A stretch of DNA of 64,000 nt from Microbacterium hominis (GTDB taxonomy: Bacteria > Actinomycetota > Actinomycetes > Actinomycetales > Microbacteriaceae): the NCBI RefSeq assembly GCF_013282805.1, contig NZ_CP054038.1, positions 3,596,001-3,660,000 on the forward strand. The letters run 5' to 3'. The translations under genes and the position numbers were made by a program. The stretch's first letter is position 1. Each line of letters starts with the position of its first letter. Below the pieces are notes generated by a model, which was given only the letters and a program-made list of their open reading frames with translations, was not told the origin of the DNA and made no database searches. This document shows positions 25,411 through 35,470 of this stretch, in pieces.

Positions 25411-26867
<1,457 letters not shown>

Positions 26868-26871
<4 letters not shown>

Positions 26872-28205: not shown

Positions 28206-30539
28206 GTGACCCTGCTCGAGCCGTCCCCGCCCACGAGCACGCCGATCGCGCACGCGCTCGATCGCGCGGCGGGCGGCGCCCCGCTCACGGTCGATGACGC
28301 CACGGCGCTGCTCGGCGCGCGCGGGGCCGATCTCGACGCCGTGCTCGCCGTCGCGGGGTCGCTGCGGGATGCCGGGCTGGCCGCTGCCGGCCGCGCGGGC
28401 GTCATCACGTACTCCCGCAAGGCGTTCGTGCCGCTCACCACGCTGTGCCGCGACCGCTGCCACTACTGCATCTTCGTGGACACCCCCGGGCAGCTGCTCA
28501 AGAAGCGCAAGCCCGTCTTCATGTCGCCCGAGCAGGTTCTCGCCGTCGTGCGACAGGGCGCGGCGATGGGGTGCAAGGAGGCCCTCCTCACCCTCGGTGA
28601 TCGGCCCGAGGAGCGGTGGCCCGAGGCGCGCGCGTGGCTCGACGAGCACGGCTTCGCCTCGACGCTGGACTACGTGGGGCACATCGCGCGGCTCATCACC
28701 GCCGAGACCGGCATGCTCGCGCACCTGAACCCCGGGGTCATGACCGCCGACGAGCTGGTCGCGCTGCGCCCGACGGCGCCGTCGATGGGCATGATGCTCG
28801 AGACCACCTCGCGCCGACTCCACGAGGAGCCCGGCCAGGTGCACTACGGATCCCCCGACAAGGACCCGGCCCTGCGCCTCCGGGTCATCGACGATGCCGG
28901 CCGCGCGCGCGTGCCGTTCACCACCGGCATCCTCGTCGGCATCGGCGAGACCGTGCGCGACCGGGCCGAGTCGCTCGTCGCGCTGCGCGACCTGCACGCC
29001 CGGCACGGGCACGTGCAGGAGATCATCGTCCAGAACTTCCGCGCCAAGCCCCGCACCGCCATGCAGGACGCACCCGACGCCGACCTCATCGAGTACGTCG
29101 CCGCCGTGGCCGTCGCCCGACTGGTGATGGGCGCGCACATGCGCATCCAGGTGCCGCCGAACCTCTCCGCCCCGGCCGAGTTCGCCCTCCTCGTGCGCGC
29201 GGGCATCGACGACTGGGGCGGCGTCTCGCCGCTGACCGCCGACCACGTCAATCCGGAACGGCCCTGGCCGCACGTCGACGACCTCGGGGCGAAGACCGCG
29301 GACCTCGGCTACACCCTGCGCGAGCGCCTCACCGCCCACCCCGAGTTCGTGCGGGATGCCGCGACCTGGCTCGATCAGGCGATGCGGGCGCCGGTGGCGG
29401 CCCTGGCCGACCCCGCGACCGGGCTGGCCGCTGCGGGCGCGGTGGTGGGGCACCCGGCCGCGCAGCCGGACGAAGGGCCGGACACGTTCCGGCGCCGGGT
29501 CGAGCGGGCCGCCGCCGACCCGCTGAGCCTCGACGACGCCGAGTGGGCGCGCCTGCTCGCCGCGACCGGCGACGACCTCGACGCCCTCGCGGCCACGGCC
29601 GACGACGTGCGCCGGTACACGGTCGGCGAGGCGATCACCCTCGTCGTCAACCGCAACCTCACCTCGTCGGGCTTCACGCGGGGCGCCCCGACCGCGCCCG
29701 GCGCGTTCACGCTCGACGACGCGGCAGCCATCGCCGTCGACGCCGCCGCGCTCGGCGCGACGGAGGTCTGCGTGCAGGGGCTCCTTCCGGCCGAGGTCGA
29801 GGCGGAGGCCTACCTCGACATCGCGCGGGCGATCAAAGACGCGGTGCCCGGCATCCACCTCCACGCCTACCGCCCGCAGGACGTGCGCGACCTCGCCGAC
29901 CGCGGCGGGCTCGGACTCGACGGGGCCCTCGCGGCGATGCGCGCCGTGGGCGTGGACACCGTGCCCGGCACCGGCGTCAAGGTGCTGAGCGAGCGCGTGC
30001 GGGCGCTCGTCGCACCCGGCGACCTGGAGATCGATGGGTGGGTCGAGGGCATCACGGCCGCGCACCGCGCCGGTTTCCGCTCGACGAGCGTGCTGTTCTA
30101 CGGCCACGTCGAGACCGCGGCCGAGCGTATCGCGCACCTGCGCGCACTGCGCGCGATCCAGCACGAGACGCGCGGCTTCACCGAGTTCGTGCCGATCCCG
30201 CTGCCCGGCCCCGCCGGCGGGGTGCCGCTCGTGCCCGGCCGCGCCGCGATCGACGAGCACCGCGCCATGGTGGCCGTCTCGCGGCTGATGCTGTCGGGCA
30301 GCATCCCGCACATCCAGATCCCGTGGACCCGGGTCGGCCGCGACACCGGAGCGGTGCTGCTGCGATCGGGCGGCGACGACCTCGGCGGCACTCTGCTCGA
30401 CGGGCGGGTCAAGCCCGAGGCGGGCATCGAGCACGGTCTCGAACTGCCGGTGGCGGATGCCGCCGCGATCGCTGCCCGCATGTTCCGCCCGTTCCGGGTG
30501 CGCACGACCACGTACGGCGACGCGGGGGCACGGCCATGA
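28206..30539 (+). CDS. fbiC: FO synthase FbiC (CofG-CofH fusion) with degenerate CofH half
   Basis: A 777-residue two-domain protein of coenzyme F420 biosynthesis that should make the deazaflavin FO from tyrosine and a ribityl-diaminopyrimidine. The N-terminal CofG half has the radical-SAM motif CRDRCHYC (Cys81, 85, 88). The C-terminal CofH half aligns from memory with mycobacterial FbiC (GATEVCVQG, FRSTSVLFYGHVE, GFTEFVP, NDLGGTL-like DDLGGTL), but where CofH has C-x3-C-x2-C just after VVNRN, this protein has LTSSGFTRGA (residues about 485-495) with no cysteine and about eight residues fewer. Start is GTG 28206; the longer frame upstream is rejected. First gene of a four-gene operon with ATGA/GTGA overlaps. 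Confidence 0.9.
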   Translation: MTLLEPSPPTSTPIAHALDRAAGGAPLTVDDATALLGARGADLDAVLAVAGSLRDAGLAAAGRAGVITYSRKAFVPLTTLCRDRCHYCIFVDTPGQLLKKRKPVFMSPEQVLAVVRQGAAMGCKEALLTLGDRPEERWPEARAWLDEHGFASTLDYVGHIARLITAETGMLAHLNPGVMTADELVALRPTAPSMGMMLETTSRRLHEEPGQVHYGSPDKDPALRLRVIDDAGRARVPFTTGILVGIGETVRDRAESLVALRDLHARHGHVQEIIVQNFRAKPRTAMQDAPDADLIEYVAAVAVARLVMGAHMRIQVPPNLSAPAEFALLVRAGIDDWGGVSPLTADHVNPERPWPHVDDLGAKTADLGYTLRERLTAHPEFVRDAATWLDQAMRAPVAALADPATGLAAAGAVVGHPAAQPDEGPDTFRRRVERAAADPLSLDDAEWARLLAATGDDLDALAATADDVRRYTVGEAITLVVNRNLTSSGFTRGAPTAPGAFTLDDAAAIAVDAAALGATEVCVQGLLPAEVEAEAYLDIARAIKDAVPGIHLHAYRPQDVRDLADRGGLGLDGALAAMRAVGVDTVPGTGVKVLSERVRALVAPGDLEIDGWVEGITAAHRAGFRSTSVLFYGHVETAAERIAHLRALRAIQHETRGFTEFVPIPLPGPAGGVPLVPGRAAIDEHRAMVAVSRLMLSGSIPHIQIPWTRVGRDTGAVLLRSGGDDLGGTLLDGRVKPEAGIEHGLELPVADAAAIAARMFRPFRVRTTTYGDAGARP

Positions 30540-32008
30540 CCGAGCCGGTGGAGGTCGCCGTCGTCGGGGCCGGGTTCGCCGGACTCGGCATGGCGATCGC
30601 CCTGCGCCGCGCCGGTATCGACGACTTCGTGGTGCTCGAGCGGGCCGGATCGGTCGGCGGCACGTGGCGCGACAACACGTATCCGGGGGTGGCGTGCGAC
30701 GTGCCGGCCCACCTCTACGGGTTCGCGAGCCACCCGAACCCGGACTGGTCGGGGCTGTACGCGCGCGGCGACGAGATCCGCCGCTACCTCCTCGGGGTCG
30801 CCGACGCGGAGGATCTCGGCGTCCGGCTGCGACTGCGCACGGCGCTCCTGTCGGCGCGCTGGGATGCCGACCGCGACCTGTGGCGCCTCTCCACCTCGCG
30901 CGGCGAGGTGACGGCCCGCTCGCTCGTGCTCGCCTGCGGCCGGCTCACCGAGCCGAGGATCCCCGAGATCGACGGGCTCGAGACATTCCCCGGCCCGCTG
31001 TTCCACTCCTCGCGCTGGGACCACTCGGTCGACCTGACCGACGCCCAGGTCGGCATCGTCGGCACCGGGGCGAGCGCCGTGCAGCTCGTTCCGACGCTCG
31101 TGCGGCAGGGGGCGCGCGTCACGGTGTTCCAGCGCACGCCGGCCTGGATCGTCCCCCGCGGCGCCCACCCCTACACCGAGGCCGAGCGCACACGGCTGGC
31201 GACGCACCCCGGCGAGCTCGCGCGCCTGCGGGCCGCCCTCTACGCCGAGGGCGAGGCGCGGTTCGCGTCGCGATCGGGGGATGCCGCGGCGGCGCGCGCC
31301 GCGCAGGAGAGCGCGCTCGCGCACCTCGCGGCGCAGGTCGCCGACCCGGCGCTTCGCGCGGCGCTCACCCCCGACTACGCGTTCGGGTGCAAGCGCGTGC
31401 TGCTCTCCGACGACTTCTATCCGGCGGTGGCCTCGCCGGCGGTCACGCTCGTGACCGCGGGCCTTGCCTCGGTGGAGGGCGCGACGCTGATCGCCGACGA
31501 CGGCACCCGTCACGACGCCGACGCACTCGTGCTCGCCACCGGCTTCGCGACCACGCAGCAGCCGTACGCCGACCTCGTCACCGGCGAAGACGGCACCCTC
31601 GCCGACCACTGGTCGGGCGGCATGACCTCGTTCGGCTCCACGGTGGTCGCAGGCTTCCCCAACATGTACGTGCTCGACGGCCCGAACGCCGCGCTCGGGC
31701 ACTCCTCGTCGGTGCTCATGATCGAGGAGCAGGCCGCCTACGCGGTGCGGTGCCTCGTGCGCGCGCGGCGCGGCGTGCTGCGGGTCGAGCCGGCGGCCGA
31801 AGCGGCCTACACCGAGGAGATCGCGGCGGCCGCGGCATCCACCCCCTGGATGACCGGCGGCTGCCGCAACTGGTACGTCGACGAGCGGTCGGGGCGGCTG
31901 ACGCTGCTGTGGCCGGGCACCGTCGACGCGTTCCGGGCGCGACTGGCGCGCGCGGACGGTTCGGAGTTCGCGTCCGCCCGGGCGGACGTGCAGAGAGGAG
32001 ATGCGTGA
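30536..32008 (+). CDS. Flavin-containing / Baeyer-Villiger-type monooxygenase
   Basis: A 490-residue FAD/NADPH enzyme. It begins with the FAD-binding GAGFAGLG (about residues 11-18), has GGTWRDNTYPGVACDVPAHLY typical of the class, the Baeyer-Villiger fingerprint F-x-G-x3-H-x3-W-D (FPGPLFHSSRWD) near 155, and the NADPH-binding GTGASAVQ. It would insert oxygen into a ketone or oxidise a nitrogen or sulfur. Its ATG overlaps the fbiC stop and its stop overlaps fgd, so it is co-translated with F420 genes although BVMOs use FAD rather than F420. Confidence 0.88.
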   Translation: MTEPVEVAVVGAGFAGLGMAIALRRAGIDDFVVLERAGSVGGTWRDNTYPGVACDVPAHLYGFASHPNPDWSGLYARGDEIRRYLLGVADAEDLGVRLRLRTALLSARWDADRDLWRLSTSRGEVTARSLVLACGRLTEPRIPEIDGLETFPGPLFHSSRWDHSVDLTDAQVGIVGTGASAVQLVPTLVRQGARVTVFQRTPAWIVPRGAHPYTEAERTRLATHPGELARLRAALYAEGEARFASRSGDAAAARAAQESALAHLAAQVADPALRAALTPDYAFGCKRVLLSDDFYPAVASPAVTLVTAGLASVEGATLIADDGTRHDADALVLATGFATTQQPYADLVTGEDGTLADHWSGGMTSFGSTVVAGFPNMYVLDGPNAALGHSSSVLMIEEQAAYAVRCLVRARRGVLRVEPAAEAAYTEEIAAAAASTPWMTGGCRNWYVDERSGRLTLLWPGTVDAFRARLARADGSEFASARADVQRGDA

Positions 32009-33018
32009 TGATTCCCATCCGGTTCGGCTACAAGGCCTCCGCCGAGCAGTTCGGCCCCGGCGAGCTGCTGGACTACGCGGTGCTCGCGGAGGAGGTCGGG
32101 TTCGACTCGGTGTTCATCTCCGACCACCTGCAGCCCTGGCTGCACGAGGGCGGGCATGCCCCGGCATCCATCCCCTGGCTCGGCGCGCTCGGGGCGCGCA
32201 CCTCGAAGGTGCTGATCGGAACATCGGTGCTGACCCCGACCTTCCGGTACAACCCCACCGTCGTCGCACAGGACTTCGCGACCCTCGGCGTGCTCTACCC
32301 GGGGCGGGTGATCCTGGGCGTCGGCACCGGCGAGGCGCTCAACGAGGCGAACCTCGGCATCACGTGGCCCGAGCCGCCGGAGCGGTTCCAGCGGCTGAAG
32401 GAGGCGATCGGCCTCATCCGGCGCCTGTGGTCGGAAGACAGGGTGAACTTCGACGGCACGTATTACCACGCGAAGAACATCACGATCTACGACAAGCTCG
32501 ACCAGCCGGTGCCGATCTACATCGGCGCCGCCGGCCCGGCCGCGACGCGCCTCGCGGGCCGGATCGCCGACGGCTTCATCACCACCTCGGGCAAGAAGCG
32601 CGAGCTCTACACCGACACGCTGCTGCCGGCGCTCGAGGAGGGCCTGTCGAAGGAGGGCCGCGCACCGGGATCGATCGACACCCTCATGGAGATCAAGGTC
32701 TCGCTCGACGAGACGCTCGAGGCCGCGCAGGAGAAGACGCGGTTCTGGGCTCCGCTGGCGCTCACGCCCGAGGAGAAGATGGGCATCGACGACCCGATCG
32801 AGATGCAGCGGCTCGGCGAGGAACTGCCGATCGAGCGCGCGGCGTCGCGGTTCATCGTCTCGGACGACCCCGACGAGCACGTCGAACGGATCGCCTGGTA
32901 CGTGTCGCTGGGCTTCCGGCACCTGGTCTTCCACGACCCCGGCCACGACCAGGAGGCGTTCCTGCGCCGCTACGGCACCGAGATCCTGCCGCGACTGCGC
33001 GCGCGGTTCGGAGCGTGA
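32008..33018 (+). CDS. fgd: F420-dependent glucose-6-phosphate dehydrogenase
   Basis: A 336-residue luciferase-like (LLM) protein, the same length as mycobacterial Fgd1, and alignable by eye over its whole length (GYKASAEQF, SVLTPTFRYNP, GVGTGEALNE, RFWAPLALT, HLVFHDPGHDQ). The F420-binding Asp39, His40 and Trp44 and catalytic Glu109 fall at the same positions as in Fgd1. It reduces F420 with glucose 6-phosphate. The start ATG shares one base with the previous stop. Its presence implies that the cell makes or expects F420. Confidence 0.93.
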   Translation: MIPIRFGYKASAEQFGPGELLDYAVLAEEVGFDSVFISDHLQPWLHEGGHAPASIPWLGALGARTSKVLIGTSVLTPTFRYNPTVVAQDFATLGVLYPGRVILGVGTGEALNEANLGITWPEPPERFQRLKEAIGLIRRLWSEDRVNFDGTYYHAKNITIYDKLDQPVPIYIGAAGPAATRLAGRIADGFITTSGKKRELYTDTLLPALEEGLSKEGRAPGSIDTLMEIKVSLDETLEAAQEKTRFWAPLALTPEEKMGIDDPIEMQRLGEELPIERAASRFIVSDDPDEHVERIAWYVSLGFRHLVFHDPGHDQEAFLRRYGTEILPRLRARFGA

Positions 33019-33704
33019 CGGCGAGCCCGGCCGCCGCGGGCTGGGCGGTCGTCGTGCCGGTCAAGGATCCGGCCCGGGGGAAGTCCCGCCTGTCCGTCGA
33101 CGGGGTGGACCGCGCGACGCTGGCACGGGCGATCGCGCTCGACACCGTCGCGGCGGTGGCGGTGTGCGACGAGGTCGCGCGGGTGATCGTGGTCACCGAC
33201 GACGCCGCCCTGCCCGCGCACGCGGGCGACATCCCCGGCGTGCGGTGGGTCGATGAGACGTTCGCCCGCGAGCGCGCCGCGGCCGATGCCGTCGCCGGAC
33301 GCCCCGGGGCGGGCATCGCCCCGGCGGGGCTCGACGGAGCGATCGCCCTCGGGATCGCGACAGCCGGTGAGGGGATGCCGCGCGCCGCGCTGCTCGGCGA
33401 CCTGCCCGCCCTGCGCGCCGACGATCTGGGTGCGGCGCTGCGGGCCGCGGCATCCCGCGATCGGGCCGTCGTCGCCGACGGCGAGGGCACGGGCTCGACC
33501 CTGGTGACGGCCGCGCCGGGCGTGGCGTGGCGCTCGTCGTTCGGCGACGGATCGTTCGCCCGCCACGTGGCACTCGGGTGCACGGCGCTGGCCGTGGAAC
33601 CCGACTCGACGCTGCGGCGCGACGTCGACACGGCGGCCCAGCTGCGCGCAGCCCTCGCGCTCGGCGTCGGCCCCCGCACCGCGGCCCTGCTCGCGCGGCC
33701 GTAG
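33015..33704 (+). CDS. fbiD: Phospho(enol)pyruvate/phospholactate guanylyltransferase FbiD/CofC
   Basis: A 229-residue nucleotidyltransferase. VVVPVKDPARGKSRL is the GTP-binding N-terminus of CofC, ALLGDLPALR the middle motif, and RRDVDTAAQL the C-terminal one. It makes the guanylylated phospholactate or phosphoenolpyruvate donor used by FbiA in F420 assembly. GTG start overlapping the fgd stop (GTGA). It ends the plus-strand F420 operon, which converges on a minus-strand unit holding fbiA. Confidence 0.9.
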   Translation: MTASPAAAGWAVVVPVKDPARGKSRLSVDGVDRATLARAIALDTVAAVAVCDEVARVIVVTDDAALPAHAGDIPGVRWVDETFARERAAADAVAGRPGAGIAPAGLDGAIALGIATAGEGMPRAALLGDLPALRADDLGAALRAAASRDRAVVADGEGTGSTLVTAAPGVAWRSSFGDGSFARHVALGCTALAVEPDSTLRRDVDTAAQLRAALALGVGPRTAALLARP

Positions 33705-34483: not shown

Positions 34484-35470
34484 TCACACGCCGCCGGTGC
34501 GCAGCGCGGCTTCGGCGAGGGCGGCCGAGGTGGCGGCGTCGGTCATCCACAGCGGAACGACGGGAGAGTGGATGCCGCGCCCGGCCACCTCGTCGGCGGC
34601 AGCCGCGTCTTCCTCGGCGAGCAGCCACGCGTCGAGGAGTCCGCCCGAGGATCGGGCCCCGTAGTGGGCCGCGACTGCCGCGGCGGAGGTCTCCACGCCG
34701 ATGGCGGTGAGGCACACGTCGGCCATGCCGCGCACGACCTCTCCGCCGATGATCGGCGAGACGCCGACGACGCGCGCCGGTGCGGCGGCGAGGGCCGCGC
34801 GCATTCCAGGCACGGCCAGGATCGGCCCGATCGACACCACCGGGTTCGACGGCGCGACGAGCACGACGTCGGCCGCGGCGATCGCCTCGGTCACCCCGGG
34901 CGCCGCAGCAGCCGCCTCGATGCCCGGGTTCTCGAAACGGGCGGGGGCGAGGGTCGCCCGGTGGCGCGTCCACCACTCCTGGAAGTGCATGTCCGATCCG
35001 TCGGCGAAGACCACCCGCGTGTCGACCTCGGCGTCGGTCATCGGCAGCAGCCGGGCGCCGAGCGGCCACCGCTCGGCCATGCGGGCGAGCACCGCGGTGG
35101 GCGTGAGCCCGTCGCGCAGCCATCCGGTGCGCGCGAGGTGGGTGCCGAGATCGAGGTCGCCGAGCGTGAACCAGGGCCAGCCGGCTCCCCACGCCTGCAG
35201 CTCGGCGTTGACGCGCTCGGTGTCACCGGCGCGTCCCCACCCGCGGACGGTGTCGTTCACGCCGGCCAGCGCGTAGGTGATCGAGTCGACGTCGGGCTGC
35301 AGGCGCACGCCCGAGAGCCACAGGTCGTCGCCGGTGTTGACGACGACCGTGAGGGATGCCGCGGTGTCGGCGACGCCGCGATCGCGCAGCGCGGACCGCA
35401 CGCCGAGCACGAACCGCGATCCGCCGACGCCTCCGGCGAGCACGACCACGCGCGGTGCGCGCGAGGTCAC
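34484..35470 (-). CDS. fbiA: 2-phospho-L-lactate / phosphoenolpyruvate transferase FbiA (CofD)
   Basis: A 328-residue protein that joins FO with the phospho-acid moiety. It shows VVVLAGGVGGSRFVLGV at the N-terminus, VVNTGDDLWLSG, and the CofD motif VAPSNPVVSIGPILAVPG. The GTG start overlaps the hemD stop. fbiB (CofE, glutamate ligase) is not in the window, so F420 tail elongation must be encoded elsewhere if it exists. Confidence 0.92.
   Translation of the reverse strand: MTSRAPRVVVLAGGVGGSRFVLGVRSALRDRGVADTAASLTVVVNTGDDLWLSGVRLQPDVDSITYALAGVNDTVRGWGRAGDTERVNAELQAWGAGWPWFTLGDLDLGTHLARTGWLRDGLTPTAVLARMAERWPLGARLLPMTDAEVDTRVVFADGSDMHFQEWWTRHRATLAPARFENPGIEAAAAAPGVTEAIAAADVVLVAPSNPVVSIGPILAVPGMRAALAAAPARVVGVSPIIGGEVVRGMADVCLTAIGVETSAAAVAAHYGARSSGGLLDAWLLAEEDAAAADEVAGRGIHSPVVPLWMTDAATSAALAEAALRTGGV

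Follow-up and report, generated by a model that had tools for sequence, protein, structure and literature searches.

A variant FO synthase of actinobacteria with a cysteine-less CofH domain and a linked monooxygenase gene

According to the review PMC8498797, every F420 producer that has been studied makes FO with two radical-SAM domains. The window analysed here, i.e. a whole stretch of 64,000 nt from Microbacterium hominis, contains an fbiC gene in which the CofG half is intact and the CofH half is devoid of the radical-SAM cysteines (Table 1). The locus raises the question of how the CofH step is performed, if it is performed at all. A sequence-only reading of the window had named three options, i.e. 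a separate CofH encoded elsewhere, an altered role of the domain, or a new route to the deazaflavin.

Table 1. Features of the fbiC region (positions in the window)
Feature	Position	Strand	Score or remark
fbiC, fused CofG and cysteine-less CofH (CofHx), 777 aa	28206..30539	+	start codon GTG, stop codon TGA
CofG half, aa 68-395, CxxxCxxC intact (Cys81/85/88)	28407..29390	+	TIGR03550 464.7 bits (cut-off 213.35)
CofHx half (aa 444-771), a CofH-type barrel lacking the cluster	29535..30518	+	TIGR03551 302.8 bits (curated cut-off 374.1)
LTSSGFTRGA, in place of the radical-SAM cysteine loop	29658..29687	+	
Flavin monooxygenase of the Baeyer-Villiger type, putative CofHx partner	30536..32008	+	4-nt overlap with fbiC
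fgd, F420-dependent glucose-6-phosphate dehydrogenase	32005..33018	+	TIGR03554 447.4 bits (cut-off 420); 4-nt overlap with the monooxygenase gene
fbiD/cofC, 2-phospho-L-lactate guanylyltransferase type	33015..33704	+	TIGR03552 106.2 bits (cut-off 105); 4-nt overlap with fgd
fbiA/cofD	34484..35470	-	TIGR01819 306.7 bits (cut-off 257.45)

The intactness claimed for the CofG half was borne out, i.e. its three cluster cysteines sit within TTLCRDRCHYC and the half passes TIGR03550. The loss claimed for the CofH half was confirmed by the sequence, the model scores and Pfam. The half fails the CofH model TIGR03551, the whole protein fails the CofGH model NF006687 (FbiC; 927.5 bits, cut-off 1018), and Pfam Radical_SAM matches only residues 76-257, i.e. 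the CofG half. VVNRN is present and is followed by LTSSGFTRGAPTAPGAF, with zero Cys, and the canonical 22-residue cysteine-bearing stretch is replaced by NRNLTSSGFTRGA. The distance from VNRN to GATE is 32 residues, versus 43 in L290, a canonical protein of Nocardia; this corrects the earlier estimate of the gap from about eight residues to about 11. As had been read, no TGC or TGT codon occurs in any frame of the + strand between 29658 and 29760. The CofH motifs VNRN, GATExCxQG, YGHV, and GFTEF are retained, the C-terminal domain of CofH is still detected by Pfam at residues 680-770, and the half has a predicted barrel of the CofH/MqnE type. We use the name CofHx for the cysteine-less CofH domain, whether it is fused to CofG or separate.

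The protein thus resembles the FbiC/CofGH of mycobacteria and streptomycetes in its domain order and in a CofG half with the cluster motif, and it shares the four CofH motifs with the canonical sequences compared, which were from other actinobacteria. It differs from them in the absence of CxxxCxxC from the CofH half, in scores below the cut-offs, and in the pairing with a monooxygenase described below. MqnE (aminofutalosine synthase), ThiH, and HydG are likewise radical-SAM enzymes, unlike CofHx with its missing CxxxCxxC.

The cysteine loss is not confined to this gene. Each of the best 120 of 7997 database matches, which include the window's own protein and are, where named, mostly from Microbacterium, has CxxxCxxC exactly once, in the CofG half; among the best 120 matches of one stand-alone CofHx protein, the motif is found in none. 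Selection was estimated within Microbacterium, using 21 of 33 sequences that could be read by the script. CofHx had a median dN/dS of 0.214, CofG one of 0.169, and the linker one of 0.583, with dS under 1.5 in 209, 209, and 155 of 210 pairs, respectively. CofHx is therefore held by selection, as the sequence-only reading had proposed to check. A sequencing error or a decay restricted to one genome was ruled out by the 120 best matches together with the dN/dS values; the shared cysteine state of these matches also excludes chance and bears out the earlier view that no sequencing frameshift is involved.

To what extent is CofHx distributed? In the Microbacteriaceae, 94 of 398 genomes have a match, and 80 loci and the window were typed by alignment, giving 66 loci without (Cys-minus) and 15 loci with the cysteines (Cys-plus); 13 matches were left untyped (genomes G316, G261, G406, G351, G159, G419, G187, G467, G395, G517, G455, G443, and G344). 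A survey of the order yielded a match in 63 of 396 genomes, 26 of which remained untyped. Among named genomes, a scan retained 80 loci from at least 570 relatives. Taken over all typed loci, the CxxxCxxC motif of CofH is missing at 157 of 187. Beyond the family, CofHx was found in Actinoplanes, Kineococcus, Actinomycetospora, Saccharopolyspora, Nocardia, Nocardioides, Pseudonocardia, Promicromonospora, Gordonia, Tsukamurella, Quadrisphaera, and other genera, and it is a stand-alone gene in several of the surveyed genera outside the Microbacteriaceae. For comparison, canonical CofH is common in Actinomycetota, with 146 of 296 genomes of a phylum sample above the cut-off. These data establish a variant FO synthase that is real, widespread, and selected. 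One contig titled Acidobacteriaceae (L195) has a fused CofG-CofHx and the monooxygenase and is placed near Tsukamurella in the tree; it is probably mis-binned.

The sequence-only reading had noticed the co-encoded monooxygenase; what it had missed is that this gene is the key partner of CofHx. Within the Microbacteriaceae, 65 of 66 Cys-minus loci have a monooxygenase gene downstream of CofHx and on its strand, versus none of the 15 Cys-plus loci. The fractions are 156/157 versus 0/30 for all typed loci and 137/138 versus 0/30 for distinct loci, the absence at Cys-plus loci referring to about 5-10 kb on each side and less at contig ends. The 30 Cys-plus entries include two that are not ordinary FbiC, i.e. 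a stand-alone relative (L285) and a divergent protein of a MAG (L291), and the genomes of these two as well as of L290 and L293 hold a CofHx locus elsewhere. All 137 distinct linked monooxygenases are encoded on the same strand and downstream of CofHx, which is fused to CofG at 82 of these loci and unfused at 55. The sole exception (L087) lies at a contig end, and the monooxygenase of the same genome is found near the start of another contig (G263:C10).

Additional loci were in agreement. Eight of them, some of which repeat earlier genomes, comprise six Cys-plus loci without and two Cys-minus loci with the monooxygenase, and three further loci outside the typing comprise L248, judged Cys-minus by eye and accompanied by the monooxygenase, and two cysteine-bearing stand-alone relatives. 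CofHx occurs together with the monooxygenase also in two other families, in which CofG has a separate gene that was seen within the stretch for 15 of 16 loci. The contrast is also found within genera, i.e. between Cys-minus loci with the monooxygenase and Cys-plus loci in g12 (L073, L119, and L133 versus L122, L124, and L127), in g77 (L104 and L115 versus L125), and in Kineococcus (L185 versus L238). In Microbacterium, fbiC is present in 77 of 149 genomes and the orthologous monooxygenase in the same 77; one of the 72 genomes without fbiC has a distant monooxygenase paralogue (276 bits). All 13 CofHx genomes searched for CofG contain it, five as a domain of a canonical FbiC. In two genomes with a paralogous monooxygenase alone, no CofG was found.

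A tree was calculated from 132 CofH domains, a thinned set of those at the typed loci, after removal of the cluster columns. In this tree, made by a quick search, the 113 Cys-minus entries form one side of a single branch (SH-aLRT 99). In the case of the monooxygenases, one branch (SH-aLRT 100) divides the linked proteins from 16 paralogues. The pair of CofHx and monooxygenase thus seems to have arisen once. Given this apparent single origin, the many loci are not independent samples, and the counts testify to long maintenance and not to many independent gains.

Which reaction could the partner catalyse? The window protein contains both FxGxxxHxxxW[PD] and [AG]GxWxxxx[FY]P[GM]xxxD, which we take to be the type I Baeyer-Villiger motifs, the strict patterns being missed in part of the relatives. 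Asp55, Lys286, and Arg287 are conserved at 98-100% in the 157 linked monooxygenases, duplicates included (Asp55 at 99%, Arg287 at 100%), and Asp55 and Arg287 align with the active-site residues Asp66 and Arg337 of phenylacetone monooxygenase. The identity is 28% to phenylacetone monooxygenase (1w4x) and 30% to cyclohexanone monooxygenase (5m0z), and the protein stays under the cut-offs of all 25 NCBIfam families listed of 26. By these hallmarks the linked gene encodes a type I Baeyer-Villiger-type monooxygenase, for which a ketone-to-ester activity is predicted. Such an activity is described in an excerpt of PMC3404926, where phenylacetone monooxygenase converts phenylacetone to benzyl acetate. 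Unlike the known Baeyer-Villiger enzymes compared, the linked monooxygenase is tied to CofHx, and it forms a clade of its own versus the 16 paralogues.

An alpha/beta hydrolase gene adjoins the monooxygenase gene at 24 of the 137 linked loci (two of them weak, with 46-47 bits), e.g. at L071:2656-3390, and is lacking at 113. For comparison, it adjoins 11 of 20 paralogous monooxygenases. This neighbourhood is consistent with ester chemistry and is no proof of it. In some linked loci the serine of the GxSxG motif of the hydrolase is replaced, e.g. in GYAIGG. At the loci L263-L282, which are from Microbacteriaceae, the Baeyer-Villiger-type monooxygenases are paralogues and the stretch contains no CofH.

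The first option of the sequence-only reading, a separate CofH, did not hold for this genome: profile searches found no canonical CofH above the TIGR03551 cut-off in it, nor in any of 80 other CofHx genomes, in which a comparison by eye places the E 1e-15 matches at the genomes' own CofHx. Additional matches found in two Actinoplanes genomes were rejected as canonical CofH; they are cysteine-bearing stand-alone CofH-like proteins, probably MqnC/MqnE. Canonical CofH was detected in five of 41 further CofHx genomes reached via named loci, i.e. in four Nocardia and one MAG, with canonical cysteines seen in two of the four Nocardia and a divergent form in the MAG. At the Nocardia loci (L190, L202, L221, and L232) CofHx is accompanied by the monooxygenase, no CofG was seen next to the pair, and the canonical CofH is located elsewhere in the genome. 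Since these five genomes have a canonical FbiC in addition to the pair, the pair is not always a replacement; in Nocardia it might have a second role or provide a backup route.

The other genes sought in an F420 producer are present in the genome, i.e. fgd, fbiD, fbiA, and an F420 ligase domain away from the locus (PF01996, 173.9 bits, genome position 3545058). In line with the earlier statement that fgd, fbiD, and fbiA are intact, all three score above the cut-offs of their models, fbiD only barely. A review table names Microbacterium only as a holder of Fgd.

We consider it probable that the radical-SAM CofH step has been replaced, with an O2-dependent monooxygenase and a cluster-free CofH barrel (CofHx) standing in for it. 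The monooxygenase, with FAD, NADPH, and O2, would convert a tyrosine-derived compound to an activated p-hydroxybenzyl donor. CofHx would hold 5-amino-6-ribitylaminouracil, the C5 of which would accept the benzyl group, and the adduct would be the same as the product of canonical CofH. CofG would then close the ring to yield FO, which FbiD, FbiA, and the F420 ligase would convert to F420 for use by Fgd. For the first of these steps, we tentatively suggest a Baeyer-Villiger oxidation of 4-hydroxyphenylpyruvate, in which migration of the benzyl group would give a 4-hydroxybenzyl oxalate ester and, from it, a p-quinone methide that is trapped in CofHx. A second, O2-dependent FO route, in which the former radical-SAM barrel adds the p-quinone methide in a polar manner to C5 of 5-amino-6-ribitylaminouracil, is conceivable, if rather speculative; a polar reaction would then have taken the place of a radical one on an unchanged scaffold, and CofG would be supplied with its usual substrate. 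Counting against the replacement are the canonical FbiC that four Nocardia and one MAG have in addition to the pair, the apparent single origin of the pair, the lack of an adjoining alpha/beta hydrolase gene at 113 of 137 linked loci, and the split monooxygenase at L219. A new route to the deazaflavin is the best supported of the three options of the sequence-only reading, and it is not proven.

In thiamin biosynthesis, the radical-SAM tyrosine lyase ThiH is replaced in some bacteria by the O2-using flavoenzyme ThiO. The present case differs from that switch in that the former radical-SAM barrel stays beside the flavoenzyme. A large clade of actinobacteria seems to dispense with one of the two radical-SAM domains of FO synthesis. 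If the proposed replacement is true, the barrel of a radical enzyme has been repurposed for non-radical chemistry, an oxygen-using enzyme has joined deazaflavin biosynthesis, F420 production in aerobic hosts might be aided, and some database names (CofH subfamily radical SAM protein, CzcO) are misleading. Neither a cysteine-less CofH nor a monooxygenase in FO synthesis was found in the titles and abstract starts of the open-licence PMC literature among the matches listed, and the excerpt of PMC6450877 contains nothing on either.

The positions that are invariant in canonical proteins were compared in both halves. In CofG, 123 of these positions are kept, none is switched, and five are lost; in the CofH half, 57 are kept, 12 switched, and 54 lost. 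The near-unchanged CofG fits the notion that it may receive the same intermediate as in canonical enzymes. The second option of the sequence-only reading, an altered role of the domain, is supported in part, i.e. the barrel persists along with many of the conserved residues, and the domain has lost the cluster loop and further residues. In a residue comparison for which 15 of 30 canonical phylum loci gave sequence, CofHx showed clade-specific residues, e.g. Arg556 where canonical proteins have Ser. These would also be compatible with a system in which CofG, CofHx, and the monooxygenase make a deazaflavin other than FO, with another aromatic donor or an extra oxygen, and the monooxygenase tailors the product instead of replacing a step. 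The near-constant linkage of an enzyme that would add oxygen and the retention of the pair in Nocardia with canonical FbiC point in the same direction. However, CofG is free of class-specific switches, fgd, fbiD, and fbiA all exceed their cut-offs, and the transfer of the p-hydroxybenzyl group would still be without a catalyst, so that we regard a product other than FO as unlikely.

CofG is the only radical-SAM domain left in the protein, and no second CofH was found above the cut-off in this genome or in the 80 others. Both facts would be accounted for if CofG alone performed both radical steps, with CofHx as a scaffold and the monooxygenase engaged in an unrelated F420-linked reaction. But the occurrence of the monooxygenase follows the loss of the CofHx cysteines and not the FO genes as such, as its absence from all 30 Cys-plus loci indicates, and CofG bears no sign of a gained role, which renders this explanation quite improbable.

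A loss of CofH function, with a decaying locus or a reliance on scavenged FO or F420, would be in accord with the absence of canonical CofH from this and the 80 other CofHx genomes and with two split genes, i.e. the CofG part of fbiC at L128, which is split over two frames and has an open CofHx half and an open monooxygenase, and the monooxygenase of an Arthrobacter contig (L219:6714-8556), also split over two frames. It is very improbable in view of the purifying selection on CofHx, which is near that on CofG, of the invariant residues retained across many genera, and of the intact neighbouring genes in the window, which overlap by 4 nt. Catalysis of the CofH step by some other, unrecognised radical-SAM enzyme of the genome is highly unlikely as well, because, even though the search covered relatives of the CofH model only and gave a 29-bit match at genome position 1016825, the E 1e-15 matches of the 80 genomes sit at their own CofHx and the linkage of the monooxygenase would be left unexplained.

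Two minor features of this genome may be added. The weak 29-bit match to the CofH model (G000:C1:1016825-1017145, L002) lies within a frame of 433 aa. The ABC-transporter ATPase encoded at 25411-26871 of the window bears a long Glu-Pro repeat tail.
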